DNA from: Candidatus Cybelea tumulisoli
GTDB lineage: Bacteria > Vulcanimicrobiota > Vulcanimicrobiia > Vulcanimicrobiales > Vulcanimicrobiaceae
Assembly: GCA_003167155.1 (NCBI GenBank)
Contig: PMTY01000172.1
Span: 36,536 to 84,160, forward strand
Length of the DNA stretch: 47,625 nt
Direction: 5' to 3'
The translations under genes were made by a program, and so were the position numbers. Under the pieces are notes generated by a model. The model was not told the origin of the DNA. It saw only the letters and a list, made by a program, of their open reading frames with translations, and searched no databases. Within the stretch, counting starts at the first letter, position 1. The number at the start of each line of letters is the position of its first letter. Below, piece by piece: positions 1,928 through 20,895 of the stretch.

Positions 1928-3175
1928 CTACGGCGTGAATTCGTAGACCGTTCCTTGGCCGAAAGCGCCGCCGGCCACGGTCGCGCCGTAGAGGTTGCCC
2001 TTCGCATCGAATGTCAATCCGTAGTAGGGATACGCGCCGTCGCTGCCGCTGCCGAACGCATGGAGCACGCTTTCACTTCCCGATGTTGCGTTGACTTTGA
2101 AGATCGTGCCGCAGCCGCAGCTTCCGCCGCCCGCGGATGTCGTTCCGTAAAGTTCGCCGTTTTGAAAAACTAGCGTCGCCGTCGGAGAGCTTCCGTCGCT
2201 GCCTCCCTGGAAACTGTAGAGCACGCGCTCCCGATACCGTCCGTGCGTTCTCGCGGCGAGTTCGAAGACGGTGCCTTGCCCATCGGCGCCGCCGTAGTAG
2301 GTCGTTCCGTAAAGATCGCCGGCCGCGTCGGCAACCAAACCGCCGTACGGGGAGTCGCCATCGAGCGAACCCGTAAAGGCGTAGAGCGTCGTCAGTTTCC
2401 AGCGTTTCCTCGACGTCACACGTAGTTTGAAGACCGTACCATCGCCATGAGCGCCGCCGATCTCCGCGACGCCATACAAGTTGCCCGCGGCATCGCGCAG
2501 TAAAAGGCCGAGTGACCCGATGCCCCCGTCCGTGCCTCCGGTAAAGGCGTGAATGACCTTCTCGTGCCATTGGTGCCCGGCACGCCAAACCTCGTAGATC
2601 GTACCCTGGGAATGCGCGCCGCCGTCGGGAGTCATGCCATAGAGGTTGCCGCTCGGATCGAAAACGACGCCGCCGCCTGGTCCGAATCCGTCGCTGCCGG
2701 CGCTAAAGTTGTGCAGGACGTTCTCGGTCTGTGGGGTCAACTGGAAGACGATCCCGCAGCCGTCGCTGCTGCACGATCCGCCGGAACCGCCGGCAACGGT
2801 GGTACCGTCGAGGTTTCCGTGCCGATCGAAGCTCACTCCACCGTGCGGATTCTTTCCGTCGGCGTAACAGCCGAAATTGTGCAGCACGCTCTCCGGCCAC
2901 GGCGGACTCGCTTGCGGCGTCAATTTGAAGATCGTGCCGCACTGCGACGTTCCGCCGATGACGGTCGTACCGTAGAGATTTCCGTTGCCATCGAAAGCCA
3001 GCCCGGTCGCGGCATTGCCTCCGTCGCCGCCACCGGTGAAACTATAGAGAACCTGTTCGGAGCTCGTCGCAGAGCGGCTGCGCGCGACGACGGCGTGTGC
3101 GGGATCGTAGCCGCTTAGACCGTATGCGCAGCCGGAAAGCATCATCGCGAGAACGATGACCGCGAGTCCGCGCAC
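1928..3175 (-). CDS. GloVer-type tandem-repeat lipoprotein
   Basis: The 415-residue protein starts at GTG and has a signal peptide with lipobox LSGC (Cys16). The rest consists of about seven repeats of 45-50 residues with the pattern [VT]LYSFTGGxDG...GLxxDxxGNLYGTTxxGG...GTIFKLTP. This is the 'choice-of-anchor tandem repeat GloVer-containing' family (TIGR03803 type). Seven repeats of this length suggest a seven-bladed propeller, though this is inference. It is the last gene of a minus-strand series and begins 4 bases after the stop of the preceding secreted-protein gene, so cotranscription is very likely. Function is unknown; surface binding or structural roles are plausible. Confidence 0.85.
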   Translation of the reverse strand: MRGLAVIVLAMMLSGCAYGLSGYDPAHAVVARSRSATSSEQVLYSFTGGGDGGNAATGLAFDGNGNLYGTTVIGGTSQCGTIFKLTPQASPPWPESVLHNFGCYADGKNPHGGVSFDRHGNLDGTTVAGGSGGSCSSDGCGIVFQLTPQTENVLHNFSAGSDGFGPGGGVVFDPSGNLYGMTPDGGAHSQGTIYEVWRAGHQWHEKVIHAFTGGTDGGIGSLGLLLRDAAGNLYGVAEIGGAHGDGTVFKLRVTSRKRWKLTTLYAFTGSLDGDSPYGGLVADAAGDLYGTTYYGGADGQGTVFELAARTHGRYRERVLYSFQGGSDGSSPTATLVFQNGELYGTTSAGGGSCGCGTIFKVNATSGSESVLHAFGSGSDGAYPYYGLTFDAKGNLYGATVAGGAFGQGTVYEFTP

Positions 3176-3179
3176 GACG

Positions 3180-3557
3180 CTACCCGCGGTAGGCGGCTGG
3201 AACGCTAACGCGGGCGCCGCCGTTCTCGCTGATGGTTGCGGTGCTTTGCTTTGGCGCGGTATCCGCTTCGCGGATCAGCTCGAACTGGACGACGGCTTGG
3301 CCCGAGGCGGGTATCGTGACGTCAACGCGCTCCGGCGAGCAGATCTTTGGCGTGCAAAAAGCCGCGAGCCATCCGCTGGCCACGCCGGACGCCTGCAAAC
3401 GGATCACGGCCTGCGGTTTGCCGCTGACTTCCAGGCGGTACTTGGCGGCCGCGCTGGTCGTCGCCTGAAGGTCGTTGCCCGTCCATGGCTGGATCGAGAG
3501 ATGAGTGGCAGGCGAGACGGCGAGCATCATCGCGAGGCCGGCGACAGCTACGTTCAT
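3180..3557 (-). CDS. Small secreted protein of unknown function
   Basis: The 125-residue protein has a short signal-like N-terminus (MNVAVAGLAMMLAVSPATH) followed by a predicted beta-rich domain with a Cys pair (AAFCTPKICSPE). Its ATG overlaps the TGA of the upstream ABC permease gene by 4 bases, which indicates translational coupling. The next gene starts 4 bases after its stop. It lies between an ABC exporter and a surface lipoprotein, so an envelope role is likely. The beta-rich middle looks like a small Ig-like sandwich. No family was recognised. Confidence 0.7.
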   Translation of the reverse strand: MNVAVAGLAMMLAVSPATHLSIQPWTGNDLQATTSAAAKYRLEVSGKPQAVIRLQASGVASGWLAAFCTPKICSPERVDVTIPASGQAVVQFELIREADTAPKQSTATISENGGARVSVPAAYRG

Positions 3558-4310: not shown

Positions 4311-5060
4311 TTAATTGCGCGTCAACTCCAAGAAGACGTCTTGCAAGGATGCGCCCAACGCGACCAGTTCTTCGGTCGGCTTTTCGGCAACGATGCGGCC
4401 GGCGCGCACGATCGCGATGCGACGGCAGAGTTCTTCGGCCTCTTCCAAGTAATGCGTCGTCAAAAAAACCGTCAGCCCTTCGGCATTGAGCTTCTGCAGC
4501 CACTCCCAGAGTTCTAAGCGAAGCTCGACGTCGACGCCGGCGGTGGGTTCGTCGAGAATCAGGAGCTTGGGTTCGTGAATCAAGGCACGTGCCAATGAGA
4601 GCCGGCGCTTCTGGCCGCCGGAAATCTTCGTGTACTCGAGATGCGCGTGCGAGGTCAGGCCGAAGCGCTCCAGCAGCATGTCGGCGCGTTCGGCCACGAG
4701 CTTTCCCCGCAGCCCGTAGTAACCGGCGGCATAGATCAGGACGTCGCGCAGCGAGAGATACCGGTCGAAGTTGAACTCCTGCGGCGAAAGGCCGATGAGG
4801 CGCCGAGCCTCGCGCCATTGCCGTTCGTTGTCGTAACCGAAGATTCGGATACTCCCGGCGCTCGTGCGAGCCAAACCGACGATTGCGTTGATCGTCGTCG
4901 TTTTGCCGGCGCCGTTGGGGCCGAGGAAGCCGAAAAACTCTCCCGATTCCACGCGCAGCGAGATTCCATCGACGGCCGTAAAACTGCCATAGCGCTTCAC
5001 GAGCCCATTGACTTCAATGGCTGGGGCGGATGCGGGGACTAGGGAATCGTGGTCTTTAAT
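4311..5060 (-). CDS. ABC transporter ATP-binding protein (YadG/DrrA-like)
   Basis: This is the ATPase partner of the ABC-2 permease downstream. Visible motifs are Walker A (GPNGAGKTT), Q-loop (LSPQEFNFDR), signature (ISGGQKRRLSLARAL), Walker B (LLILDEPTAGVD) and H-loop (FLTTHYLEEAEE). The start is uncertain. The conserved first strand 'IEVNGLVKRYG' has no ATG, GTG or TTG close upstream. The nearest such codon is a TTG at 5189, which would add 43 residues that are only the antisense-free, out-of-frame reading of the upstream gene. I place the start at an ATT at 5060 (MKDHDSLVP...), about 19 bases before the upstream stop, as the likeliest. Reinitiation after the upstream gene would fit. Confidence 0.85.
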   Translation of the reverse strand: MKDHDSLVPASAPAIEVNGLVKRYGSFTAVDGISLRVESGEFFGFLGPNGAGKTTTINAIVGLARTSAGSIRIFGYDNERQWREARRLIGLSPQEFNFDRYLSLRDVLIYAAGYYGLRGKLVAERADMLLERFGLTSHAHLEYTKISGGQKRRLSLARALIHEPKLLILDEPTAGVDVELRLELWEWLQKLNAEGLTVFLTTHYLEEAEELCRRIAIVRAGRIVAEKPTEELVALGASLQDVFLELTRN

Positions 5061-5770
5061 CGTTTGTACCGGTGGCGGCGGAGGGTGGCGATGAGTTCGG
5101 TACTCTCCGGAATCCCGCAGTCGCTCAATTGAGTTGCGACCTTCTTGACGTCGAAGGCGACGCGCCGGTGCTTCACCTGCCAGCCGCAATCACGCTCGGT
5201 AAAGATCGCATAGCAGGCCCGCGGATCGCCATCCTTCGGTAAGCCGACCGACCCTACGTCGACCAGCAGTTTGCCTCGCCACATTCGCACGTAGGGCAAG
5301 TGCAGATGGCCGAAGGCAATCGTCGCTGCGCGCTCGTCGCCGACGAGTCGCTGGAGCACCTCTTCATCGGCATCCGGCCAGAGGTGTTCGTCGTCGTTCT
5401 TTGGATTGGCGTGCACGATCAGCAGTTGGTTGTCGTCTTCGCCCATGCGCAGGGCAAAGGGCAACTCTCGCAGCCATGCGAGCCAACGTTCGCCGATCTC
5501 CCGGCGCGTCCACGCAATCTGCGCCTTCTCGGCCGCCGTCAGCGTCTCGGCGACCGCTTCGTCGAAGACGTAGCGGTCCTTGTTCCCGCGAATGCACGCG
5601 GCGCCGATCTCTTCCAGGCGCAGCAGCACCTTCTTGGGTTTCGGTCCGTCGAGACAGAGATCGCCCGCAACGACAACGCCGTCGGCGCCCCCCTGCGATT
5701 CGAGATCCGCCAGACAAGCGTCGAGCGCTAAAAGGTTTCCATGCACGTCAGAAAAGACGGCAAATCGCAT
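5039..5770 (-). CDS. Calcineurin-like metallophosphoesterase
   Basis: The 243-residue cytoplasmic protein carries the metallophosphoesterase metal-ligand set: DVH (residues 8-10), GDLCLDG (36-42), GNKD (62-65, in place of the usual GNHD or GN[CN]D), a His in LIVHAN (120) and FGHLH (153-157). It is similar in size to the YfcE/MJ0936-like phosphodiesterases. A 25-45 residue C-terminal extension is basic. It starts 12 bases after the DDAH-like gene and ends inside the ABC ATPase gene, so it belongs to the same operon. Substrate is not predictable. The Lys in GNKD replaces a residue that is often the catalytic His, so activity may be altered. Confidence 0.85.
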   Translation of the reverse strand: MRFAVFSDVHGNLLALDACLADLESQGGADGVVVAGDLCLDGPKPKKVLLRLEEIGAACIRGNKDRYVFDEAVAETLTAAEKAQIAWTRREIGERWLAWLRELPFALRMGEDDNQLLIVHANPKNDDEHLWPDADEEVLQRLVGDERAATIAFGHLHLPYVRMWRGKLLVDVGSVGLPKDGDPRACYAIFTERDCGWQVKHRRVAFDVKKVATQLSDCGIPESTELIATLRRHRYKRLKTTIP

Positions 5771-5782
5771 CGGCCCTCCAAC

Positions 5783-6616
5783 TCACTCGCGTTTGAGAGC
5801 CAGCGCCAGCATCGACGGAGCAACTCCAAGCTTCGTAAACTCGTAGAGGTCGATCGATTCGACGGTGATGCCCGCGCGACGCATTTGTGCCAACGCCGTG
5901 CGGTAGCGAATGTCGGCGAGCACGTGCCGTTCGCCTAGGCAGAGCACGCCGGCGGCCAGTTCTTCCCCTCGCTCCAGCACGATCGTCCGAAAACCGGCAA
6001 ACGCGGCAATGTCGGCTTTGTCGCCGCCGACGACGATCGTGTCCCTTGCGACGGCGCCCGCGACGCAGCGCAGCGAAAGCACGTTGGGGGCAAGGCGGAC
6101 TTCGACGACGCGATACCCGCGTGCGCCCGCGAGTTTCGCAAAGCCCTCGCGGCCAAATGCGTTTCCGCGCGAGCCCACGCCGACAAAGGCGGTCTCGCCC
6201 GCGAGAATGACGTCGTTGCCGTCGAGCAATCCGGGGCTCGCAATATGTCCGGCCAGCGGCACGTCGAGCTGCGCGAACTCCGCTTGCATCCGATCGGCCT
6301 CCGCGCGTCGCGACAGGGGCGTCGGGCGCATCATCACCGCGCCGTCCTCAAAGACGACTGCGGCATCGCCCGCGCCCACTTCGTAGGGATCGTTTGCGTG
6401 AGAGCCGAGCACGATCGTTTCGACGCCGAAGTATGCGAGCGTCGAACGCAGGACTTCGTGCTGCTCGAACGCGCGGGCATAGATTGCGCCGGGCTCGCCG
6501 ATTCGCGCGCCGGCGCGCTCGATGCCGGCGTTCGGGCGCACCAAAACGGCGCACCGCAGGCGCCCCGTTGCCGTCGCCACCAACCGCGGGCCAAAACCGA
6601 CCGCAGTGGGCGTCAT
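5783..6616 (-). CDS. DDAH/arginine-deiminase-fold protein, apparently without catalytic His and Cys
   Basis: The 277-residue protein matches dimethylarginine dimethylaminohydrolase across its length: 'GAGDAAVVFEDGAVMMRP' with 'LSRRAEAD', 'LDGNDVILAGETAFVGVGSR' and a C-terminal 'EFTKLGVAPSMLALAL'. In active enzymes the third block reads LHLKS with the catalytic His; here it is LSLRC, with Ser181. The C-terminal block normally reads [GL]LTCxS with the nucleophilic Cys; here it is APSMLAL, with Met269. Asp84 and the DGxD motif (132-135) are kept. It is therefore probably a binding or structural pseudoenzyme rather than a hydrolase. Its ATG overlaps the stop of the upstream fusion gene by 4 bases. 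Confidence 0.8.
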   Translation of the reverse strand: MTPTAVGFGPRLVATATGRLRCAVLVRPNAGIERAGARIGEPGAIYARAFEQHEVLRSTLAYFGVETIVLGSHANDPYEVGAGDAAVVFEDGAVMMRPTPLSRRAEADRMQAEFAQLDVPLAGHIASPGLLDGNDVILAGETAFVGVGSRGNAFGREGFAKLAGARGYRVVEVRLAPNVLSLRCVAGAVARDTIVVGGDKADIAAFAGFRTIVLERGEELAAGVLCLGERHVLADIRYRTALAQMRRAGITVESIDLYEFTKLGVAPSMLALALKRE

Positions 6617-8904
6617 TGCGCTTGATAGGTTTCGGGAACGGGGGCAACGGTAAAAAAGCTCGCCAAATCGGAGGCGAGCAGATCGTTGAGCGTCAGAGGC
6701 GGCAATCCGAAGATCTCCTCTTCGGTCTTTACGATGCTGGCGACGCTAAGATTCTGATCGCCGACGTATCCGCGCCGGGCCAGCGGCGACACGACCAAGG
6801 CATAGCTGCGCAGCCCGTCGAGGTGATCGTTGGGCGATTCGACGCCCTCGGGCACGACGAAGATCGCCGTCGAGCTCCAGTGCGGCGTGTGTGAGATAAA
6901 ATCGACGATTTCACCCAGCGCGGCGTCGGCATCGCTCACGCCGGTCGGCCCGTCCTCCGTCGGAATCAAGACGTAGGTAAAGCTCGGCACCCGATCGCTC
7001 GCAACCAACTGCTGCATGTCTCGCACGAACTCGTCGGCCCGAGCCTTATCGGCGACTTTCGGATTGTAGCCCGCGTAATCGAGGTCCACGTTGCCCGAGA
7101 GCGCGGCAAGCGCGGGAACGTCGAGATGATAGAGGGATCCATCGTATCCGGAAAGGCGCAACAGGCCTCCGTAGTCGCGGTAGGTAAGGCCGGCCCGCGC
7201 AAAGGCATTGAAGAGATAGCCGCCGCGACCATAATCCTCCGGATCGTCACCGTGGTCGTTGCGCGGAGCGCGAGCGGCGCCGGCCGCATCCACGAGCTGC
7301 TGGTAGAGCGTTGGTTCGGAGGCCGTTGCGAGCTGCTTGGCAATGTTGAGATCGGTGTCGGCTGCGTAAAAGTTGTCGGCCAGCGCGTAGCTGCGCGCGA
7401 GCGCGTGCAGATTTGGGGTCGAACTCTGCGGATACAGATTCAACGCGGCGTCGCCGTTGCCGTGCGGCTTGCCCGAATCGTCATTCAGGTCGCCGAGCAT
7501 GGCGTCGTAGCCATGCGTGCCAACGGCGATGTACACGACGTGATCGATGACGACGCTACGCTTGTTCGAGCGCAGGGGCGGAATCACGGCGTCGAACTTT
7601 GCGAGTCCGGGCGTCCGATTGTAGCGCAGCGCAGCCAGCGTCGCCTTGACCAGCGACGTGTGCTTGAGGTCCACGCGTTGCAGGATCGCTTGACTGCCGG
7701 CGCTTTTGGCATTGGCCACGTACAAATAGCGGCCATTGGCGGAGAGTGCGATTGCCGTCGGATACCACGCGGTCGGAATCAGCCCGAAACGATAGCGCGT
7801 GGTACGCCGCGAGTCGAGCACCGCCACGGCGTTGAGTCCGGCCAACGCAACGTAGAGCCGCTTGCCATCGGGACTAAGTGCTTCGGCGCTCGGCGCGGCG
7901 CCGTACGGCGCGCCGGGATACAGCCGCAGGTCGAGTCCGCGCACCACCCGGGGCGCTCCGGCGAGACTGACGACCGCCACGCGATCCACGTTGGAGAGCG
8001 CCACGTACGCCAGCTTGCCATCCTTACTGAGCACCATCGCGCCCGGCGCGGCTCCGCCGACGACTTGCGTGCCATTGGGCGCCGGGTCCAGCGGAACCGT
8101 CACAGGATCGACGCTCGCACTCCCGGGAGAGAACTGGAAGACCGAGAGCGCCGACGATTTACTCGGATCGAAGACGGGTGCGGCAAAGTTTGGCTGTCGT
8201 GCCGGCTGCGCGAGCACTGCGTACGTCGAGAGGCCGCTCCCGCTTGCCAGCAGCTTGTCGCGCGCGGCGGCAAGGTAGAGCGGAAAATCGCCAGCGGGAA
8301 TCGTTTGCGTGACGGTTCGGCTCGAGAGATCGACTTCAAGTACCGCGTTGCCGAGATTATCGGCGACGTACGCGGTTCGACCGTCGGGCGACAGGGCAAT
8401 CTGCGCGGGAAATGCGTGGCCCGGATGTTGCGACGGAAGCGTTATCGCCGCTTGCGCGACGAGCGTGCCGCTAGGATCGAGGTTGAAGACGTCGAGCGCG
8501 CCAGCCGCCGCGTCCGAGGCGAGCACGATCGTTTGCGCCGGGTCCCGCGGGTCACGCGTTGCCGCGACCCCCATGAAGAACGATGCCGACGGATTCGGAT
8601 AGAGGCTCGCTAGCTTCATCGTCCCCACGTTCACGACGCCGAGCGACGAGGTTCCCGACAGAATGGCGTACCGGCCGTCCGGCGAAAGCGCCATACCCAA
8701 TGCGCCGCTGCCGACTAGGAGGCTCGTGCCCGCCGGTGCGGCGATTCTTCCGTCAGGAAGAACGGCATCGGCGGGGTCTATCCGGTCGGCTCCGGCTGGA
8801 CGGATGCCTGCGGGTGCGGAGTACATGATGAGAGGAGCCGGTCGACTCCCCGCACCCAATAAGGCGGCGGCCAATAACGCCGCTGCAATTTGTCGAAACG
8901 ACAC
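6613..8904 (-). CDS. YncE-like beta-propeller fused to phosphatase-fold domain (likely inactive)
   Basis: The 763-residue protein has a signal peptide (about residues 1-20). A YVTN/YncE propeller follows (about 60-420), with repeated 'LSPDGRYAYVA'-type strands. The C-terminal domain (about 455-755) resembles the phosphoesterase of 'bifunctional YncE/alkaline phosphatase family' proteins: 'IDHVVYIAVG', 'TPNLHALARSYALADNFY', 'DADAALGEIVDFISHTPHW', 'LRSYALVVSPLARRGYV'. The usual ENRTYD nucleophile block reads GTHGYD, SADGH reads DTDLNI, and EDDAQ reads PEGVE; only the later DH is kept. The phosphatase is therefore predicted dead. GTG start with no clear Shine-Dalgarno. It is first in a seven-gene minus-strand series. 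Confidence 0.85.
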   Translation of the reverse strand: MSFRQIAAALLAAALLGAGSRPAPLIMYSAPAGIRPAGADRIDPADAVLPDGRIAAPAGTSLLVGSGALGMALSPDGRYAILSGTSSLGVVNVGTMKLASLYPNPSASFFMGVAATRDPRDPAQTIVLASDAAAGALDVFNLDPSGTLVAQAAITLPSQHPGHAFPAQIALSPDGRTAYVADNLGNAVLEVDLSSRTVTQTIPAGDFPLYLAAARDKLLASGSGLSTYAVLAQPARQPNFAAPVFDPSKSSALSVFQFSPGSASVDPVTVPLDPAPNGTQVVGGAAPGAMVLSKDGKLAYVALSNVDRVAVVSLAGAPRVVRGLDLRLYPGAPYGAAPSAEALSPDGKRLYVALAGLNAVAVLDSRRTTRYRFGLIPTAWYPTAIALSANGRYLYVANAKSAGSQAILQRVDLKHTSLVKATLAALRYNRTPGLAKFDAVIPPLRSNKRSVVIDHVVYIAVGTHGYDAMLGDLNDDSGKPHGNGDAALNLYPQSSTPNLHALARSYALADNFYAADTDLNIAKQLATASEPTLYQQLVDAAGAARAPRNDHGDDPEDYGRGGYLFNAFARAGLTYRDYGGLLRLSGYDGSLYHLDVPALAALSGNVDLDYAGYNPKVADKARADEFVRDMQQLVASDRVPSFTYVLIPTEDGPTGVSDADAALGEIVDFISHTPHWSSTAIFVVPEGVESPNDHLDGLRSYALVVSPLARRGYVGDQNLSVASIVKTEEEIFGLPPLTLNDLLASDLASFFTVAPVPETYQAQ

Positions 8905-8915: not shown

Positions 8916-9980
8916 ATTACCAGCGCGGGTCGCGTTGACCCTGCCGTCTTAGCGGTAGCTACGGCCGTTCCGCCCTTTGTGCTCGGCCAAGCCGAGGTGG
9001 TCCGGCGCATCGATTTGGCGCTCGGCCCACGCTCGCGGGAAATCGTCCGGCTGCTTCCAATGTTCGGCAACACGGGCATCGAGCGCCGCTACTCCTGCGT
9101 CCCGATCGAGTGGTACGAGGAAGCCCACGACTGGCCCGACCGCAATGCGGTCTATCTCGATTCGGCCGTCGCCCTCCTCGAGAAGGCGACGATCGAGGCC
9201 CTCGAGCGCGCGGGTCGCCGAGCCGACGAAATTGAGGCCATCGTCGTCGTCTCCACGACCGGAGTCGCGACCCCCAGCCTGGACGCGCTCCTAATGGAGC
9301 GCATGGGATTACGCCGAACCGTCCGCCGCTTGCCGATCTTCGGGCTTGGCTGCGCCGGCGGCGTGATCGGGCTGGAGCGCGCCGCCACGATGGCCCGCGC
9401 GAAACCTGACGCTCTGGTGCTCTTCCTGGTCGTAGAGCTCTGCGCGCTCTGCTTTCGCCGTGACGACTTCTCCAAAAGCAACATCGTGGCGACCGCCCTC
9501 TTCGGCGACGGAGCCGCGGCCGCGCTGCTCTCCTGCGAAGGCCAGGGCCCGCTAGTCCTAGGCGGGGGTGAGTTCACGTGGCCGGAGTCGCTCGACGTGA
9601 TGGGCTGGGAGGTCACGGGTGACGGGCTCAAGGCCATCTTTTCACGCGATATTCCGGACCTGGTAACGACGAGACTGCACGATGTAACGGCCGGCTTTCT
9701 TTCCGAGCACGGTCTCACATTACGCGACATCGATCGCTTCGTCTGCCATCCCGGTGGCGCGAAGGTGCTCGACGCTCTGGCCGTCGCATTTGAAATCCAA
9801 CCGCAACGGTTGAGCGAGTCGCGCGAAGTCTTGCGCGATTACGGCAACATGTCGGCAGCCACCGTGATGTTCGTACTCGAACGCACGCTTGCATCGCCCA
9901 CGCCGTGGAAACGCGCACTGCTCAGCGCCCTAGGCCCCGGCTTCACCGCCGGCTTCACCCTGCTCGAATTGTCATCCTGA
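8916..9980 (+). CDS. Type III polyketide synthase
   Basis: This chalcone-synthase-family enzyme condenses malonyl-CoA units on an acyl-CoA starter to make alkylpyrones or alkylresorcinols. The catalytic triad is visible: Cys146 in GLGCAGG, His278 in VCHPGG and Asn311 in GNMSAATV. The first canonical start is a GTG at 8979, but that would cut off the conserved N-terminal strand 'VLAVATAVPPFVL'. Reading back in frame leads to an ATT at 8916 with GGGAGG 5 bases upstream, giving 354 residues, the normal family length. The gene diverges from the propeller/phosphatase gene by only 11 bases. It is followed by an ICMT-family gene, as in Bacillus bpsA-bpsB, so the product may be O-methylated. Confidence 0.9.
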   Translation: MTSAGRVDPAVLAVATAVPPFVLGQAEVVRRIDLALGPRSREIVRLLPMFGNTGIERRYSCVPIEWYEEAHDWPDRNAVYLDSAVALLEKATIEALERAGRRADEIEAIVVVSTTGVATPSLDALLMERMGLRRTVRRLPIFGLGCAGGVIGLERAATMARAKPDALVLFLVVELCALCFRRDDFSKSNIVATALFGDGAAAALLSCEGQGPLVLGGGEFTWPESLDVMGWEVTGDGLKAIFSRDIPDLVTTRLHDVTAGFLSEHGLTLRDIDRFVCHPGGAKVLDALAVAFEIQPQRLSESREVLRDYGNMSAATVMFVLERTLASPTPWKRALLSALGPGFTAGFTLLELSS

Positions 9981-9997
9981 GCGCAGTCGAAGGATGA
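9972..9997. repeat. REP-like palindrome bridging PKS stop and ICMT start
   Basis: Perfect 7-base arms TCATCCT (9972-9978) and AGGATGA (9991-9997) flank a 12-base loop GAGCGCAGTCGA. The TGA stop of the PKS lies at the foot of the left arm and the ATG of the next gene lies in the right arm. From memory, very similar 'TCATCCTGAGCG...AGGATGA' sequences are dispersed in many unrelated bacterial genomes. No second copy was noticed here. Confidence 0.6.
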
Positions 9998-10497
9998 GCG
10001 TCCTTTACGTCGCCCTCACACTCGTACTGCTACAACGCATCGCCGAGTTAATCTACTCCGCGCGCAACACGCGCCGGCTTCTGCAACGCGGCGGCATCGA
10101 AATCGGTGCCGTGCAATACCCGTTCTTCGTCGTGCTTCACGCCGCGTGGCTGGCGAGCATGGCCATTTTCATCCCGCCTGCGACGCCGCCGAACTGGTCG
10201 CTGCTGGGGCTGTACGTGCTGGTGCAGCCGCTGCGGATTTGGAGCATCGCAAGCCTCGGACCGTATTGGACGACGCGCATCATAACCGTTCCTGGAGAGC
10301 CGCTCGTCCGGCGCGGACCGTATCGCTTCTTCCGCCATCCGAACTACATCGTCGTCTGCACCGAGATCGGCGTCCTGCCGCTCGCGTTCGGTGCCGTCGA
10401 AATCGCGCTCGTCTTCTCGATCCTCAACGCGGCGCTGCTTTCGTGGCGCATTCGCGTCGAAGAACGCGCATTGCTTGGCCGCAAAGCGGATGACTAG
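9994..10497 (+). CDS. Isoprenylcysteine carboxyl methyltransferase (ICMT) family membrane protein
   Basis: The 167-residue protein has about four membrane helices and the ICMT/phospholipid-methyltransferase motif 'GPYRFFRHPNYIVVCTEI' followed by a C-terminal 'RIRVEERALL'. In Bacillus the equivalent BpsB, next to type III PKS BpsA, methylates alkylpyrones. The same job is likely here, by family and context. Its ATG lies in the right arm of the palindrome that also ends the PKS gene, 13 bases after the PKS stop. The purine-rich GAAGG abuts the ATG and is too close to be a normal Shine-Dalgarno, so coupled translation is probable. Confidence 0.85.
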   Translation: MSVLYVALTLVLLQRIAELIYSARNTRRLLQRGGIEIGAVQYPFFVVLHAAWLASMAIFIPPATPPNWSLLGLYVLVQPLRIWSIASLGPYWTTRIITVPGEPLVRRGPYRFFRHPNYIVVCTEIGVLPLAFGAVEIALVFSILNAALLSWRIRVEERALLGRKADD

Positions 10498-10521
10498 ACC
10501 CGTGGCGCCGAAGTTTTATTT

Positions 10522-11286
10522 ATGGATGCGCTAACCGACCACGCACGCAAGAATCTCGAGCACTGGGACCGGCAAAGCGACGACTATGAGGCGCGTCATT
10601 CGGAGCAACTAACGCAAAATCCGATGGCTTGGGGCTGTTGGTCGGTTCCGGAGTCGCAGCTCCAAGTGCTTGGGGACGTCGGCGGAAAAGATGTACTCGA
10701 ACTCGGCTGCGGGGCAGCGCGCTGGGCCATCGCGCTCGCGAAGCGCGGCGCGCGAGTCGTCGGACTCGATATTTCAGCGCGCCAGCTCGAGCACGCGCGA
10801 CGAAATATGCGCGATGCCTGCGTTGATTTTCCGCTCGTTCATGCCAGTGCGGAAGCGGTTCCGTTGGCGGATGCCTCGTTCGACATCATCTTCTGCGACC
10901 ACGGTGCCATGACTTACTGTGACCCGTATTGCACGGTGCCCGAAGCGGGGCGGCTGTTACGCCGGGGCGGCCTGCTGGCCTTTTCCGCAGCAACACCGAT
11001 CCTGAATCTCTGCTGGAACGAATCGGAAGACCACGTTGACGACCACCTCCATGCGAACTACTTCGATCAGCGACGTTCTGAGGATGCCTCAAGTGTCAAC
11101 TTCTCGTTACCTTATGGCGAGTGGATCGCGCTATTTCGCCGCAATGGCTTTACCATCGAGGACTTGATCGAGCTCCGCCCGCCGCACGATGCCCAAACAA
11201 GCTATACGGATTATGCGCCGATTGCGTGGGCACGTGCGTGGCCGGCGGAGCAGATATGGCGCGTCAAGAAACTGCGCGATTCTTAG
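10522..11286 (+). CDS. Class I SAM-dependent methyltransferase
   Basis: The 254-residue cytoplasmic protein has the Rossmann methyltransferase motifs: motif I 'DVLELGCGAARWAIALA', post-I acidic residue in 'VVGLDIS', motif II region 'ASFDIIFCDHGAM' and motif III 'RLLRRGGLLAFS'. It starts 24 bases after the ICMT-family gene on the same strand, so it probably belongs to the PKS operon and may modify the polyketide. An N-terminal aromatic/acidic extension ('HWDRQSDDYEARH') is typical of UbiE/Methyltransf_11 enzymes. Substrate is not predictable. Its end overlaps the convergent secreted-protein gene by 4 bases. Confidence 0.85.
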   Translation: MDALTDHARKNLEHWDRQSDDYEARHSEQLTQNPMAWGCWSVPESQLQVLGDVGGKDVLELGCGAARWAIALAKRGARVVGLDISARQLEHARRNMRDACVDFPLVHASAEAVPLADASFDIIFCDHGAMTYCDPYCTVPEAGRLLRRGGLLAFSAATPILNLCWNESEDHVDDHLHANYFDQRRSEDASSVNFSLPYGEWIALFRRNGFTIEDLIELRPPHDAQTSYTDYAPIAWARAWPAEQIWRVKKLRDS

Positions 11287-11861: not shown

Positions 11862-13178
11862 ATGAAGGGATTTGATTTCGGTCGGCATGCGTTAAGCAGT
11901 TGTATGGCTGCAGCCATGCTCGCGAGCTGCGGTCTCCAGGACGAAACGCAGCCGCCGATCGGAGCTCCGCGGACGATGCCGCGGAGTGCCTCGCACCCTC
12001 CCCGGCTAACCGTTCTGTACGCGTTCCGGGGCGGTCACGATGGTGCCGGACCCGGGGGAGCTCTCGTCATGGATGCGAGCGGGGCGATCTACGGCCTTGC
12101 GGGCGGAGGCGGTGTGACAGCGTGCTACCACGGGTGCGGCACCGTGTTCAAGCTCACGCCATCCCGCTCAGCCTATAAAGAGAGAATTCTCTACAGATTT
12201 CTCGGTGGAAGTGACGGCGAATCCCCCGACGGGGGGCTGATTATGGATGCCGGGGGTGCGCTGTATGGAACGACGGTCGGCGGGAGTTCCGGGTGTCCGC
12301 CGAGTTGCGGTACCGTTTACTCGCTAGCGCCCACCAAGGCGGGATGGGTTCACGACGTCCTTTACCGGTTCAAGGGCGGCTCCGATGGTTACGGCACGTA
12401 TGGCGGTTTAACCATTGACTCGAGCGGCGCGCTCTATGGCACGACCGCTGAGGGCGGCGCACACGGTGCTGGGACGGCGTATAAACTGACGCCGACGAAA
12501 TCGGGTTACGAAAAGTCCACGCTATTCAGCTTCCCAAGGAGCCACGACGCGGAACCCGTGGCGAGTCTGCTCCTCGGCAAGCGCGGAGCCCTCTACGGCA
12601 CGGCGCTTTTTAGCAGCGTCTTCGCGTTGACGCCCAAGTCGTCGCATTATGTCGCGCGAATTCTCCACGAATTGAGCGGGTCTCCCGACGGCTCTTTACC
12701 GTACGCTAACGTCATTCCCGGCCCCGACGGAGCGCTCTACGGTACGACGTACGAAGGCGGCACGTCGCACTGCAAGTACCACACTGGATGCGGAACCGCG
12801 TTTAAACTCAGCCCCGCGAAGTCCGGCTACAGCGAGACGGTCTTTAGCTTTGCGAACGACGACGGTGCCTATCCGCTCACGGCTCTGCTACTCGCTAAGG
12901 GCGGCGCGCTGTACGGTACAACGACCGGCGGTGGTAACAAGTGCCCCGGCCGCGAACCGACCTATGGATGCGGCCTGGCTTTTAAGCTCGAACCCGCAGG
13001 CTCGGGCTTCAAGGAAACGGTGCTCTACAAATTCACGGGCCGAGCCGACGGAGCGGACCCGTCGTCACCTCTGATTGCCGACGCGAGCGGCGCGCTGTAC
13101 GGCGCGGCTGGAACCGGAGGTCCAAGCCTCCGGAGGTGTCAGGGCGGTTGCGGGATCATCTTTAGCCTGGAGCCATAG
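11862..13178 (+). CDS. GloVer-type tandem-repeat lipoprotein with PPIGAP motif
   Basis: The 438-residue protein has a signal peptide with lipobox LASC (Cys23), followed by 'QPPIGAPRTMP' (residues 30-40). About seven repeats follow, of the pattern VLYRFxGGSDG...GLxxDxxGALYGTTxxGG...GTxxKLTP, the GloVer family. The middle repeats (about residues 210-270) are shorter and degenerate. Seven repeats suggest a seven-bladed propeller (inference). It is a distant paralogue of the 1928-3175 gene on the other strand. The sequence after its stop contains the remains of a further repeat in another frame. Function is unknown; it is expected to face the periplasm or cell surface. Confidence 0.85.
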   Translation: MKGFDFGRHALSSCMAAAMLASCGLQDETQPPIGAPRTMPRSASHPPRLTVLYAFRGGHDGAGPGGALVMDASGAIYGLAGGGGVTACYHGCGTVFKLTPSRSAYKERILYRFLGGSDGESPDGGLIMDAGGALYGTTVGGSSGCPPSCGTVYSLAPTKAGWVHDVLYRFKGGSDGYGTYGGLTIDSSGALYGTTAEGGAHGAGTAYKLTPTKSGYEKSTLFSFPRSHDAEPVASLLLGKRGALYGTALFSSVFALTPKSSHYVARILHELSGSPDGSLPYANVIPGPDGALYGTTYEGGTSHCKYHTGCGTAFKLSPAKSGYSETVFSFANDDGAYPLTALLLAKGGALYGTTTGGGNKCPGREPTYGCGLAFKLEPAGSGFKETVLYKFTGRADGADPSSPLIADASGALYGAAGTGGPSLRRCQGGCGIIFSLEP

Positions 13179-15341: not shown

Positions 15342-16790
15342 TTATCGCGAGACGCGATCGATAGCGTCCTCGCCTTCGATTTTGCCTGGCGTGCGGCGTG
15401 CGATGCCCTCTTCTTGTGCGGCGTTCGCAACGGCTTTGGCGACTGCATCGACAACCCGAACGTCAAAGACGCTGGGGATCACGTATTCGGCGCTGCGCTC
15501 GTCCTCGCCGACGATCTCGGCGATGGCAAAGGCGGCGGCGAGTTTCATCCGTTCGGTGATGCGCGAGGCGCGAACGTCTAGAGCGCCGCGAAAGATTCCC
15601 GGGAACGCCAGCAGATTGTTCACCTGATTGGGAAAATCGGAGCGCCCGGTTGCAATAACCGCCGCGAACGGAGCCGCAACGTCGGGCATGATCTCCGGAT
15701 TGGGATTGGCCATCGCAAAAACGATGGGATCGCGTCCCATGCTCGCGATATGCTCGGGTTGGAGGATGCCCGGGGCGGAGACCCCGATAAAGACGTCCAC
15801 GCCGGCCAAGACCTCGTGCAGTGACCCGCGGCGGTTCTCCAGATTGCAATGCTCGGCCAGCCAACGCCAATGCGGGTTCTCATAGCGGTCGGTGCGATTG
15901 AGTGCGCCACCGCGGTCGACCGGAATGACGTCGCGCACTCCTGCGCCCAGCAGCATCTTGATCGTCGCGGTACCCGCGGCGCCGCTTCCCGAAACGACGA
16001 CCTGTAGATCCTCCAGCGGCTTGCCGACGACGCGCGCGGCGTTGATGAGCGCCGCGAGAATCACGACCGCAGTACCATGCTGGTCGTCGTGCATTACCGG
16101 AATGTCGAGCGCTGCGATCAAGCGATCTTCGATCTCAAAACAGCGGGGAGCGCTGATGTCTTCGAGATTGACTCCCCCGAACACCGGCGCGATGCGCACG
16201 ACCGTTTCGACGATCTCGTCGACGTTCTTGGTGTCGAGGCAGATCGGGAACGCGTCGATGTCGGCGAACTGCTTAAAGAGCATCGCCTTACCCTCCATCA
16301 CCGGAAGCGCGCCGAGCGGCCCGATGTCGCCCAAGCCAAGCACGGCCGTCCCGTCGGTAACGATCGCCACCGTGTTGCGCTTGATCGTGAGTTGGAAGGC
16401 TTTGCCGGGGTCGGCGGCGATCGCCATCGAGACGCGGGCCACGCCGGGCGTATAGACCGTCGAAAGATCCTGACGCGTCTTGATCGCGATCTTCGGCTCG
16501 ATGCGAATCTTGCCGCCGATATGCGCGAGAAAGGTCGAGTCGGCCGAGAAGATGATTCGAGCGCCGTCGATGCCTTCGACCGCCTTGCGCACATCGTCGG
16601 CAACGGCGTCGGAGGCGACGCTAATCGTGACGTCGCGAACGACGCGCGTTCGCGCGACGGTGTGCATATCGACGGCGCCGATCGCTCCACCGGCATCCCC
16701 GATCGCATTGGCGAGCACGCCGAACGCGCCGGGCTCGTTGGGTGTCTCGATTCGCAGGACGAGGGTTAGGCTGATTGCGGGTTGCGTCAT
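15342..16790 (-). CDS. NAD(P)-dependent malic enzyme with N-terminal ACT domain
   Basis: The 482-residue enzyme should convert malate to pyruvate and CO2. An ACT-like regulatory domain occupies about residues 8-85 ('LVLRIETPNEPGAFGVLANAI'). The malic domain follows, with 'TVYTPGVARVSMAIA', 'LGLGDIGPLGALPVMEGKA' and 'LEDISAPRCFEIE'; then the NAD-binding domain with 'DDQHGTAVVILAAL' and 'VVVSGSGAAGTATIKMLL'. It begins one base after the TldE stop, so it is cotranscribed with the peptide-turnover genes. The ACT domain implies allosteric control by a small molecule, probably an amino acid. Confidence 0.93.
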   Translation of the reverse strand: MTQPAISLTLVLRIETPNEPGAFGVLANAIGDAGGAIGAVDMHTVARTRVVRDVTISVASDAVADDVRKAVEGIDGARIIFSADSTFLAHIGGKIRIEPKIAIKTRQDLSTVYTPGVARVSMAIAADPGKAFQLTIKRNTVAIVTDGTAVLGLGDIGPLGALPVMEGKAMLFKQFADIDAFPICLDTKNVDEIVETVVRIAPVFGGVNLEDISAPRCFEIEDRLIAALDIPVMHDDQHGTAVVILAALINAARVVGKPLEDLQVVVSGSGAAGTATIKMLLGAGVRDVIPVDRGGALNRTDRYENPHWRWLAEHCNLENRRGSLHEVLAGVDVFIGVSAPGILQPEHIASMGRDPIVFAMANPNPEIMPDVAAPFAAVIATGRSDFPNQVNNLLAFPGIFRGALDVRASRITERMKLAAAFAIAEIVGEDERSAEYVIPSVFDVRVVDAVAKAVANAAQEEGIARRTPGKIEGEDAIDRVSR

Positions 16791-16791
16791 G

Positions 16792-18123
16792 TTAGTTACC
16801 GCTGACCATCAGCTCGGAGACGCGAAACGACGGCGAAACGACCCCCGCATCGAACTGCAGATCGTTCGCGATGCCATCGATGTTCGCAAGCATGTCCACA
16901 TACTGTCCCGCGACGGTAAACTCATCGATGGGATAAGCGACTTCGCCGTTCTCGATGAAGAAGCCGCGGGCGCCGCGGCTATACGTCCCCGAGGCATGTT
17001 CGGTCGCGAAGCCGATCGTATCGAGCACCAGGACGCCAAGCGGCGTCGAGGCGATCAGTTCGGCAAGCGACATCGCGCCCGGCTCGAGGTAAAAATTGTT
17101 CGGCCCGATTCCGCCGCCGGTCGAGTTCCCGGTGCTGACGGCACCGAGTTTGCGCGCATAGTACGTGTCGTAAAGAAACGTTCGCAGCGTTCCACGCTCA
17201 AAGACTGCAGTACGCTGCGTCGGAACCCCTTCACCGTCGAACGGCGAGCTTCCGAGTTTGCCGACCAGCCGTCCGTCATCCACGATCGTCACCAGCTCGC
17301 TGCCGATGCGTCTGCCGGTCCGCTCCGTCAGCCACGAGTTATCGACCGCCACGTTGGCGGCCGAGATCGCCGAGAAGACGTCGTCGAGAAACGTGGCGGC
17401 CACGTCGCGCTCGAAAATCACCGGCACGCGCATCGTCGGCGGCTTTCGCGCGCCAAATAGATCGACTGCCCGGCGGACGGCCGTCGTCGCCACGGCTGCC
17501 GGCGCCTCCAAGTCGCCGAGATAGCGTCCGGCGGTTCCATAGTGTGCGATTCGTTTGACGCCGCCGTCGATGGCGACGGGGCCGGTCGAGCGCCCCGCGC
17601 GCGTCCACTTATAGACGGCCGAAAACCCCGACGTATTCGCGATCGCCGAGACGGCGATGGCGTCGGTGTAGTTGGAGCCGCTGGAGTTGACGACGCGCGC
17701 GTCGGCTTCGCGGATCAACCGTTCGAGTTTGATCGCGTCGTCGAGCTTGTCGGCGCCGTCCCGGTCGGCGATGCGGGAATCGAAGAGGGCCAGATCGACG
17801 TCGTCGGTCGCGACCACGTCGGGAAGCCCCGCAAACTCGTCCACCGCGACTTGGTCTGCCTGTGCGACCGCGCGACGAATCGCTTCGTCCATTCCCTCGA
17901 GCGAAAAATCGGAAGTTGTCAGCGTTGCCTTTCGCCCGCCCCGGAAGACGCGCATGAAGAGGCCTTTGCCGGTAGAGGCTTCGAGCTTGGAAATCGCATT
18001 GTCTCGCGCTTCGGCATGGAACCGCCGAGCGATCGAGACGGAAGCCTCGGCGCTTTCGGCGCCCGCGGCGCTTGCGAGCTTGAGCGCCGCGGAGGCTAAC
18101 TCGATCGCGCTGGCGTCATTCAT
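16792..18123 (-). CDS. tldE: TldE/PmbA-type metalloprotease subunit
   Basis: The 443-residue cytoplasmic protein is the non-catalytic partner (PmbA/TldE) of the TldD-TldE protease, which in other bacteria matures microcin B17 and CcdA and unfolds small peptides. Family marks include 'SVSIARRFHAEARDNAISKLEAS', 'GKGLFMRVFRGGRKATLTTS' and 'DDGRLVGKLGSSPFDGEGVPTQ', with no HExxxH. It overlaps the end of tldD by 8 bases and is followed by the malic enzyme after one base. The order tldD-tldE is common. Its substrate here is unknown; no obvious peptide precursor is nearby. Confidence 0.9.
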   Translation of the reverse strand: MNDASAIELASAALKLASAAGAESAEASVSIARRFHAEARDNAISKLEASTGKGLFMRVFRGGRKATLTTSDFSLEGMDEAIRRAVAQADQVAVDEFAGLPDVVATDDVDLALFDSRIADRDGADKLDDAIKLERLIREADARVVNSSGSNYTDAIAVSAIANTSGFSAVYKWTRAGRSTGPVAIDGGVKRIAHYGTAGRYLGDLEAPAAVATTAVRRAVDLFGARKPPTMRVPVIFERDVAATFLDDVFSAISAANVAVDNSWLTERTGRRIGSELVTIVDDGRLVGKLGSSPFDGEGVPTQRTAVFERGTLRTFLYDTYYARKLGAVSTGNSTGGGIGPNNFYLEPGAMSLAELIASTPLGVLVLDTIGFATEHASGTYSRGARGFFIENGEVAYPIDEFTVAGQYVDMLANIDGIANDLQFDAGVVSPSFRVSELMVSGN

Positions 18124-19513
18124 GTTGCGTTCCGCCGACGGTAATGGACGAAATCTTCACCGTCGGCATGCCGACGCCGACGGGCACGCTCTGGCCACCC
18201 TTCCCGCAGGTGTAATGGCCGCGCGCCAGGCGACTGTCGTTCCCGACCGCCACGACCTTCCTCATCGCATCCGGGCCGTTTCCGACGATCGTCGCGTTTC
18301 GAACCGGCGCCGTGATCTTTCCATTCTCAACCAGATAGCCTTCGCCAACCATGAAAACGAAATCTCCCTTGGCGATCTCCACTTGGCCGCCCGCGAAGGA
18401 CTTCGCATAGATTCCGCGCTTGGTCGAAGCCAAGATCTCCTCAACGGTAGAGTCGCCGTTGGGCATGTACGTGTTGCACATGCGCGGCTGGGGAGCGTAC
18501 CGGAAGGATTGTCGCCGCCCGCTGCCCGTCGAATGGGTGCCCATCAAGCGCGCGTTGAGCGTATCTTGCATGTATCCGCGAAGCACGCCGTTTTCGACCA
18601 ACACCTTATGCTGCCCCGGCACGCCCTCGTCGTCGACGTTGATGCTGCCCCGCTCCTCGTGCAAGTTTCCGTCATCGTAGATCGTCACCAGTTCGCTGGC
18701 CACGCCTTCGCCGACCCTTCCGCTGTAGAGTGAGGTGCCACGCCGGTTGAAATCGCTCTCGAGGCCGTGGCCGACGGCCTCGTGGAGCAGCACGCCGCCG
18801 CCCCCGGCTCCGACGATCATCTCCATCTCGCCCGCCGGGGCCGGCGCCGCGGAAAGGTTGACCGTCGCGATCCGGGCGGCGTCTTCGGCAAGCATCTCGG
18901 GCGTTTGCCGATCGAAATAGGCGATGGACGTGCGACCGCCATCACCGACATATCCGGAGCTGCGCTCGCTCTTGTCGGTCGCCACGGTTTGGATGCCGAG
19001 CGTAACGAGGGGACGGCAATCCCGAACGATCCGCCCTTCACTCGTCGCAATCCATACTTCTTGTATCTCGTCGACGACCTGCGCATTCACCGCGACGATG
19101 CGAGGATCGTAACGGCGCGCGGCGACATCCGCGCGTTCCAGCAGAGCGGCATAGCGGGCGCCGTCGATTGCCGTCAGGAGATCACAATCGTAGAGCTTCG
19201 GCACGTTCTCGAGGCGAAGCTGCGCGGCACCGACCTTTCCCGAGGGCGCCGTCCGGGCAATCAAGGAAGCCGAGTCGGCGGCCTCCATCAGCGCATCGGT
19301 GCTTAGATCGTCGGAGCTCGCGAAGCCGGCCGATTCGCCAACGACCACGCGCACGCCGACGCCGAGCGTCACGCCGTAGCTGGCGTCGTGGATTCGGCCG
19401 TCTTGCAGCCGGTAGCTCACCGTTCTGCGCCGCTCGCAGAAAACGTCGGCGTATTCGCCGCCGCGCTGTAACGCGCGATCGAGCAATCGTGAGAGCAGAG
19501 ACTCGTCGAACAC
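18116..19513 (-). CDS. tldD: TldD metalloprotease subunit
   Basis: This is the catalytic subunit of TldD-TldE, with the zinc motif 'HEAVGHGLESDFN' (HExxxH) and flanking 'GGGGVLLHE', 'VNVDDEGVPGQ'-like and 'ARGHYTCGKGGQSVPVG' blocks. The frame is open far upstream, but the family N-terminus 'VFDESLLSRLLDRALQRGG' begins at GTG 19513, just after AAGAAGGG and 17 bases after the stop of the upstream carboxypeptidase gene. This gives 465 residues, the usual length (E. coli TldD 481). It overlaps tldE by 8 bases. Confidence 0.92.
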   Translation of the reverse strand: MFDESLLSRLLDRALQRGGEYADVFCERRRTVSYRLQDGRIHDASYGVTLGVGVRVVVGESAGFASSDDLSTDALMEAADSASLIARTAPSGKVGAAQLRLENVPKLYDCDLLTAIDGARYAALLERADVAARRYDPRIVAVNAQVVDEIQEVWIATSEGRIVRDCRPLVTLGIQTVATDKSERSSGYVGDGGRTSIAYFDRQTPEMLAEDAARIATVNLSAAPAPAGEMEMIVGAGGGGVLLHEAVGHGLESDFNRRGTSLYSGRVGEGVASELVTIYDDGNLHEERGSINVDDEGVPGQHKVLVENGVLRGYMQDTLNARLMGTHSTGSGRRQSFRYAPQPRMCNTYMPNGDSTVEEILASTKRGIYAKSFAGGQVEIAKGDFVFMVGEGYLVENGKITAPVRNATIVGNGPDAMRKVVAVGNDSRLARGHYTCGKGGQSVPVGVGMPTVKISSITVGGTQHE

Positions 19514-19530
19514 TTTTGTGCGAACCCTTC

Positions 19531-20895
19531 TTAATACTCGACCAAACGGTCGACGGCGCGTACGATTGAGGCATCGGGATCGGCGGAAGATCCGTCGATC
19601 AGAAACGCGAATGCAACGCGGCCGTGGTGCAGGGTCGAGGCATAGCCGGCGAGCGACGAGACATTCGAAAGGTGCCCGCTCTTGGCGCGAACCCGGCCAA
19701 GCGCGGTCGTGAAATCGTAATCGGCGAGCGTTCCGTCGCGCCCGCCGCGCGGGAGTAAACCATAGAGCAACGGCTCTTCGGCAACCAGAAGACGCGTTAC
19801 CGTTATCGCCGCGACGCGATTGTTGTGCGAAAGGCCGCTGCCGTCCAAGAGCCTCAAGCCCGGCGACGGAACGCCGAGCCGCGTCAGAAAGAGACGTTCG
19901 GCGCCAACGCCGGCATCGTCGCTGGACTCGCCGGTCACTTCCTCGCCAACGGTTCGCAAGAGCTGCTCGGCATAGTGGTTGTCCGAGACGAAGAGCATGT
20001 GCGTTTCGAGAACGCTCAGGGGAGCGGATTTGTGGTTCCACAGGACCAGCGTCCCCAGCGGCGCGGCGCCGAGGCTGGGCGATGTCGAAACCAGGATTCC
20101 GCGCGCGCGAAGCATCGTCGCAGTCTGCCCCGCCACGTAGCGTTGGACGTCTTGCATCGGCGTCCAGACCGGTTGCCCGTCGTCGTCGGACTCGACGGTA
20201 TCACCGTCCAGAGATATCCCGCTCGTCGGCGGAGCATAATCTTCACCGGCATCGTCGGCGTCCCAGTGCGGATTGTACGCGGGCCCACTCATCGCGGTCG
20301 CATCGATCACGACGCTGCCGTCGATCCGGCGCAATCCCGAACGCAAGAGCACGGCGATGCCGTTGCGAACGTCCGACGACTGCAGCGACGGATCGCCCGA
20401 TCCGGCCAGCCAAAGATTTCCCTCGAGCACGCCGTCGCCGGCCGGCTCTCGAGAGGCGAAAATTGTATGATAGCGGTAGTTCGGACCCAGCGCATCGAGC
20501 GCGCTCGCCGCAACGATCAGCTTTTGAACCGATGCCGGGGCCACGGCGTCGCCCGAGCGATCGCCGTAAATTGTTTGGCCGCCGGGGCCGGCGACGGCCA
20601 AACTCCAGCTTTCGGCGCCGTCGAGCGCCGGCGCAAAGGCGCCTCGTAAAGCCGCGGCGAGCGCGAGCCGTTGCGAGTTGGTCCAGGGCGGTGCCTGGGT
20701 CGATAGCGGCGCGCGCGTCGTCGGAGACTTCGCCGAAACGCCGTGGCCGAGTGCGCCGCCTCGTCCGTCGTTCCAAAGCCAAGCCCCCAGCGTCGCCAGC
20801 GTGACGATAAGCGCGAAAGCGAAGACCCGGCGCTTATGCACGCGCGAGCGCTTCGATCTTCTCCTGTAGCCTACGCTGGTCTTCACGTAACTCAT
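19531..20895 (-). CDS. dacB: D-alanyl-D-alanine carboxypeptidase/endopeptidase (PBP4, DacB family)
   Basis: This peptidoglycan hydrolase should remove terminal D-Ala and cut 4-3 crosslinks in the periplasm. Active-site motifs are SxxK (APASVQKLI), SxN (VSDNHYAEQLLR) and KSG (RAKSGHLSNVSSLAGY). A basic segment followed by one hydrophobic helix (RRVFAFALIVTLATLGAW) forms the signal or anchor. The start is unclear. ATG 20895 has GAGG 6 bases upstream but overlaps the aminopeptidase by 62 bases; GTG 20841 overlaps it by only 8. I list the former because of its ribosome site. Length (about 436-454 residues) fits the family. Confidence 0.9.
   Translation of the reverse strand: MSYVKTSVGYRRRSKRSRVHKRRVFAFALIVTLATLGAWLWNDGRGGALGHGVSAKSPTTRAPLSTQAPPWTNSQRLALAAALRGAFAPALDGAESWSLAVAGPGGQTIYGDRSGDAVAPASVQKLIVAASALDALGPNYRYHTIFASREPAGDGVLEGNLWLAGSGDPSLQSSDVRNGIAVLLRSGLRRIDGSVVIDATAMSGPAYNPHWDADDAGEDYAPPTSGISLDGDTVESDDDGQPVWTPMQDVQRYVAGQTATMLRARGILVSTSPSLGAAPLGTLVLWNHKSAPLSVLETHMLFVSDNHYAEQLLRTVGEEVTGESSDDAGVGAERLFLTRLGVPSPGLRLLDGSGLSHNNRVAAITVTRLLVAEEPLLYGLLPRGGRDGTLADYDFTTALGRVRAKSGHLSNVSSLAGYASTLHHGRVAFAFLIDGSSADPDASIVRAVDRLVEY

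Follow-up and report, generated by a model that had tools for sequence, protein, structure and literature searches.

What does a DDAH-like protein do when the residues with which DDAH cuts its substrate are missing? The question is raised by a gene of Candidatus Cybelea tumulisoli that lies beside the genes of a putative ABC exporter on contig PMTY01000172.1, within an analysed stretch of 47,625 nt that is called the window here. The features of the locus are collected in Table 1.

Fold assignment and genomic setting

No Pfam family was matched by the DDAH-like protein at 1e-3, and the curated NCBIfam dimethylargininase profiles NF045658 and NF045660 scored it at 93.4 and 66.5 bits, far under their cut-offs of 340 and 450; intact DDAHs from the same phylum likewise score under these cut-offs. 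In a phmmer search of the PDB, DDAHs were the sole matches (best 7e-14). An AlphaFold2 model built from 41 sequences (mean pLDDT 94.2, pTM 0.91) had Pseudomonas aeruginosa DDAH (PaDDAH, 1h70) as its top PDB fold match (TM 0.83/0.90, rmsd 2.2, 260 columns), and model and match both display the five-module pentein fold. Furthermore, hhalign aligned the cassette proteins with intact DDAHs over 260 columns at an E-value of 2.7e-45. On the strength of a confident model and a profile match, the DDAH fold claimed by the initial annotation is firmly assigned.

The gene belongs to a cassette that is read on the minus strand in the order propeller/phosphoesterase, DDAH-like protein, metallophosphoesterase, ABC ATPase and ABC-2 permease; the start codons of several of these genes are estimates. 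The propeller gene precedes the DDAH-like gene on the same strand in 48 of 49 loci, with a gap of at most 100 bp in 43, and the metallophosphoesterase gene comes next in 42 of the 49 (median gap 8.5 bp). At L045, L046, L106, L109 and L112, a spacer of 0.7-1.5 kb separates the propeller and DDAH-like genes where the join is usually tight. Translational coupling to the upstream gene had been suggested, and in the window the two genes do overlap by 4 bp (ATGA), an arrangement found at about 15 of 49 loci and hence in only about a third of orthologues. A promoter and terminator scan gave nothing above shuffled sequence. The ATPase and permease resemble those of the DrrAB, NodIJ and YadGH ABC-2 exporters, from which they differ in scoring below the curated cut-offs, and those systems are not known to us to include accessory propeller or DDAH-like genes. 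The sister family carries the cassette without the metallophosphoesterase, and of the cassette genes a third family of the same class (f3) has just the ABC ATPase/permease pair, which suggests that the DDAH-like and propeller genes joined an older exporter pair.

The upstream partner has a hydrophobic N-terminus. The 50 PDB matches listed for it were all propellers, and the phosphoesterase domain was not found among them. That domain has lost its presumed metal ligands in the window: intact paralogues read ENRSYD and EDDAQDGPDH where the window protein reads GTHGYD and PEGVESPNDH, so that EN, replaced by GT (462-463), and DD, replaced by EG (686-687), the expected metal-binding motifs of the PF04185 phosphoesterase family, are both gone. 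Among 48 orthologues, the E of EN is kept in 15 and DD is partly kept in 18. The suggestion that this neighbour is a second pseudoenzyme thus suits the window's genus and, for the family at large, describes a tendency rather than a rule.

Several flanking genes were also recorded. A small exported-looking protein without a family match is encoded directly after the permease (3180-3557, minus strand) at about 20 loci. Divergent from the cassette, 8979-11286 (plus strand) encodes a type III polyketide synthase, an isoprenylcysteine-type methyltransferase and a SAM methyltransferase; the first two of these are neighbours of the cassette only within the window's genus and in a few relatives. A malic enzyme with an ACT domain, TldE/TldD and a DacB-like carboxypeptidase occupy 15342-21060 (minus strand); in many relatives the genes for the malic enzyme and TldE are found upstream of the cassette. 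The window further encodes two similarly composed exported proteins with GG.DG..P..GL repeats, at 1928-3175 (minus strand) and 11862-13178 (plus strand).

Table 1. Cassette genes and key codons of the DDAH-like protein in the window; orthologue counts refer to distinct cassette proteins
Feature	Position	Strand	Basis
Upstream partner: predicted signal sequence, YncE-type beta-propeller and PF04185 phosphoesterase domain, degenerate metal-binding motifs	6613..8904	-	profiles, motif alignment
DDAH-like pseudoenzyme, 277 aa	5783..6616	-	ORF, PDB match, fold model, alignment
Codon 41, Glu; 80/80, invariant in cassette clade only	6494..6496	-	alignment
Codon 84, Asp, Asp66 equivalent; kept in 73/80	6365..6367	-	alignment
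Codon 103, Arg, Arg85 equivalent; kept in 79/80	6308..6310	-	alignment
Codon 132, Asp, equivalent of catalytic carboxylate Glu114; Asp in 78/80	6221..6223	-	alignment
Codon 150, Arg, Arg132 equivalent; kept in 62/80	6167..6169	-	alignment
Codon 181, TCG, Ser, at catalytic His162 of PaDDAH	6074..6076	-	alignment
Codon 237, Arg; 80/80, invariant in cassette clade only; Gly in most intact enzymes	5906..5908	-	alignment
Codon 269, ATG, Met, at nucleophilic Cys249 of PaDDAH	5810..5812	-	alignment
Calcineurin-like metallophosphoesterase; SDVHGN/GD/GNKD/GHLH motifs present	5039..5770	-	profile and motifs
ABC transporter ATPase, DrrA/NodI-like; listed start overlaps preceding gene, true start probably near 5035	4311..5189	-	profile
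ABC-2 permease, PRK15066/YadH-like, 221/225 bits	3554..4300	-	profile

Catalytic loss across the cassette clade

DDAH catalysis depends on a Cys-His-Glu triad (PMC9980740). The replacement of His by Ser181 and of Cys by Met269, as read in the initial annotation, was borne out by a multiple alignment in PaDDAH numbering and by the profile-profile alignment used to check it. Further losses in the window protein are aligned at Asp60 (Tyr78), Glu65 (Gly83) and Asn204 (Gly223), so only the Asp66 equivalent survives of the FVED motif (Asp60, Glu65, Asp66). The Asp60 position is presumed to contact the alpha-amino end of the substrate.

Among 80 distinct cassette orthologues, which are mutually related and all from one phylum, none has Cys at the Cys249 column and four, all from the sister family, have His at the His162 column. 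Of the readable cases among the 25 rows of non-cassette relatives, all 24 have His and 23 of 24 have Cys. With Cys absent from 80/80 and His from 76/80 cassette proteins, catalytic loss is not a matter of chance. The loss of both residues therefore holds for every orthologue examined from the window's own family and has to be qualified for the four sister-family proteins with His; no orthologue retains the intact pair. The particular residues Ser181 and Met269, whose conservation was proposed at first as a check, alternate with others (Arg, Ser or Ala at the His column; Met, Ser, Leu, Ala or Gln at the Cys column), and it is the absence of Cys, and of His outside the sister family, that is conserved. 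Within the clade, the His, Cys and Asp60 columns lie at entropy percentiles 66, 78 and 95, as against 0, 5 and 18 for the Arg85, Glu114 and Asp66 columns, indicating that the catalytic columns drift freely while several binding columns do not.

Misalignment or a substitute cysteine was also considered and rejected, as Cys184 is found in 2/50 and Cys226 in 18/50 orthologues. The Cys-dependent hydrolysis of the pentein superfamily would therefore be beyond this protein. The invariant charged residues Arg97, Arg103, Asp132, Asp135, Arg237 and Glu41 could in principle form an active site in this pocket that works by a new chemistry without Cys; in the orthologue alignment none of the residues around the former catalytic positions is a conserved Cys, His, Ser, Thr, Lys or Tyr, we know of no Cys-independent member of the superfamily, and such an enzyme is considered highly improbable.

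Retained pocket residues and new invariants

The substrate side of the pocket tells a different story. In line with the initial annotation that substrate-side residues remain, Arg103, Asp132, Asp84 and Arg150 are all present in the window protein and widely kept among the orthologues (Table 1), which favours ongoing binding of something in the window's family. Arg276 (80/80) and Gly264 join Glu41 and Arg237 as clade-specific invariants, with Pro267 nearly so, and the new Arg237 and Glu41 suggest a remodelled site or interface. In the sister family, the Asp66 equivalent is gone from 4/4 proteins and the Arg132 equivalent from most, and the cassette is kept. It is doubtful that the whole order shares one ligand, since Asp60 is lost and its column highly variable, the Arg132 position varies as well, and Asp66 is missing from the sister family.

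Known pentein proteins offer several points of comparison. With PaDDAH the window protein shares the fold, a full-length alignment and equivalents of Arg85, Glu114 (as Asp) and Asp66, whereas it lacks the catalytic Cys and His, FVED and the Asn204 and Asp60 equivalents, falls under the curated cut-offs and is encoded in an exporter cassette. The N-terminal stretch of sister-family members matches the profile of arginine deiminase (ADI), which is compared here together with the arginine dihydrolase ArgZ, and the intact relative L093 has an FTRD motif; the 277-aa window protein, in contrast, has neither the Cys/His pair nor the helical insert of ADI, nor an ornithine cyclodeaminase domain. IF6/eIF6 and PADI6 also have the pentein fold, have no demonstrated catalysis and work by way of protein contacts; the likeness drawn to the cassette protein is one of kind, not of sequence.

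The closest likeness in kind is RESC5 of Trypanosoma brucei (8dpk), a match in the fold search with TM 0.74-0.75. RESC5 is a lineage-specific pseudoenzyme of DDAH fold in which Cys is replaced by Ala and His by Pro and the pocket Arg and Asp are kept, and it binds neither citrulline nor dimethylarginine although more of its pocket is kept than in the window protein (PMC9980740). The window protein likewise combines a DDAH fold with the absence of Cys and His. However, RESC5 is a component of a eukaryotic RNA-editing complex and the cassette protein belongs to a bacterial ABC-exporter operon; there is no detectable sequence link between them, and the losses are independent. To our knowledge, RESC5 is the only characterised DDAH pseudoenzyme, and DDAH-fold pseudoenzymes are known only from trypanosome RNA editing.

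These comparisons bear on what the pocket may hold. A sensor that binds arginine, methylarginine or citrulline without hydrolysis and signals to the exporter would account for the carboxylate- and guanidinium-side residues Arg103, Arg150, Asp84 and Asp132. Against it, the Asp60, Asn204 and Glu65 equivalents are lost, Arg132 is variable, and the Asp60 loss together with the sister-family losses argues against a fixed guanidino ligand. As RESC5 binds no methylarginine (PMC9980740), a guanidino ligand is not to be assumed, and this narrow form of a binding role is judged improbable. A pure scaffold has better prospects and is a substantial, if less probable, alternative to a binding role. Here the pocket would be empty and the surface alone would matter, as proposed for RESC5 and IF6, with the protein bridging exporter subunits or the metallophosphoesterase. 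The RESC5 precedent points this way by analogy, the clade-specific Glu41, Arg237, Arg276, Gly264 and Pro267 suggest a new surface or site, and the sister family keeps the cassette without the Asp66 and Arg132 equivalents. However, the near-invariance of the Asp66, Glu114 and Arg85 equivalents in the window's family, while the catalytic residues drift, would be unexpected of an empty scaffold unless folding needs them.

Descent and maintenance of the cassette protein

All 50 cassette proteins in a 75-row tree fall on one side of a single branch with support of 100/99, and on this phylogeny they are of one origin. The intact relative L093, whose branch is poorly placed in the same tree, is a candidate sister. 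Intact DDAHs with FVED, LHLKS and SCLS motifs are encoded at unrelated loci in the same class (L041-L044), one genome (G026) has both an intact DDAH and the cassette protein, and some cassette genomes have an intact ArgZ-type paralogue elsewhere. A second weak DDAH-like match lies directly upstream of one intact DDAH (L041/G048:C95:9023-9565). The four sister-family proteins carry His in an HLG context like that of L093 and Ala-type residues at the Cys position; their retention of His without Cys suggests that Cys was lost first and His later.

Of 99 genomes from the window's family, 97 contain the DDAH-like gene at detectable similarity, as do all four from the sister family. Among the two exceptions, G004 is 68% complete; in G030 the propeller gene runs to the edge of one contig and the permease gene begins close to that of another, so true absence was rejected in favour of a probable assembly break. 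No occurrence outside the phylum was seen among the 51 matches of a conserved-pattern scan, whose narrow pattern distant members may escape; the matches bearing names were Candidatus Eremiobacterota/Vulcanimicrobiota MAGs or misnamed MAGs. Plasmid hits were intact enzymes, not pseudoenzymes. Enterococcus phage records OR846605.1 and PQ520363.1 contain an unannotated half-length match to the C-terminal part of the protein. A literature search found no paper on DDAH-like cassette proteins in Eremiobacterota.

Pairwise comparisons give the DDAH-like gene a dN/dS of 0.13-0.24, which is near the value for the propeller gene and higher than for the ABC genes. The protein is thus under strong purifying selection and maintained. 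Its lost catalytic residues might suggest a decaying relic, translated without function, and this is refuted by the dN/dS values, the near-complete retention and the fixed cassette position, leaving it a negligible prospect; the same features give the stable inheritance under selection expected of a pentein pseudoenzyme. A role as regulatory subunit of an active DDAH was rejected, as no further DDAH-type gene is present in the window's genome at E<=1e-10.

Discussion

The reading tentatively preferred here is that this conserved pentein-fold pseudoenzyme serves the exporter cassette by binding or as an adaptor, without hydrolysis, and does so in the cytoplasm, since it has no signal sequence. 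It is favoured over the empty scaffold by the pocket residues kept in the window's family. As the order arose, a superfamily enzyme would have been added upstream of the older ABC ATPase/permease pair. In the window's family, the remodelled pocket (Arg103, Asp132, Asp84 and Arg150 with Arg237 and Glu41) is probably still occupied, whether by a small amino-acid-like or anionic ligand or by a protein side chain, and the occupied protein may gate or dock the ABC ATPase/permease or the neighbouring phosphoesterase, with the secreted propeller partner acting across the membrane from it. The functional tie to the exporter is suggested by synteny. Against a binding or adaptor role, the f3 exporter works, presumably, without a DDAH-like protein, folding may be the reason why residues such as Arg103 and Asp132 persist, and RESC5 keeps its pocket and binds no methylarginine or citrulline (PMC9980740).

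A bolder and rather unlikely extension of the binding or adaptor role is an exporter module run by two tandem pseudoenzymes, in which a cytoplasmic dead DDAH would sense or dock a ligand for the ABC-2 transporter and be paired with an exported dead phosphoesterase-propeller, giving a new accessory-controlled ABC export system that defines the order.

The cassette protein is an independent bacterial DDAH-fold pseudoenzyme whose approximately 100 orthologues trace back to a single branch. Because intact relatives occur nearby and the sister family supplies an intermediate that has His without Cys, stepwise catalytic loss is open to study. Automatic annotation may label the protein a dimethylargininase, and the label would be wrong. 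The cassette is also present in what appears, by inferred genome identity, to be the cultivated Vulcanimicrobium alpinus, which makes its role testable. The phylum Eremiobacterota is little studied, and in one of its orders almost all members keep this protein in one gene block with an exporter although the residues for cutting have been lost; its role is therefore probably to bind or dock something and not to cut it.
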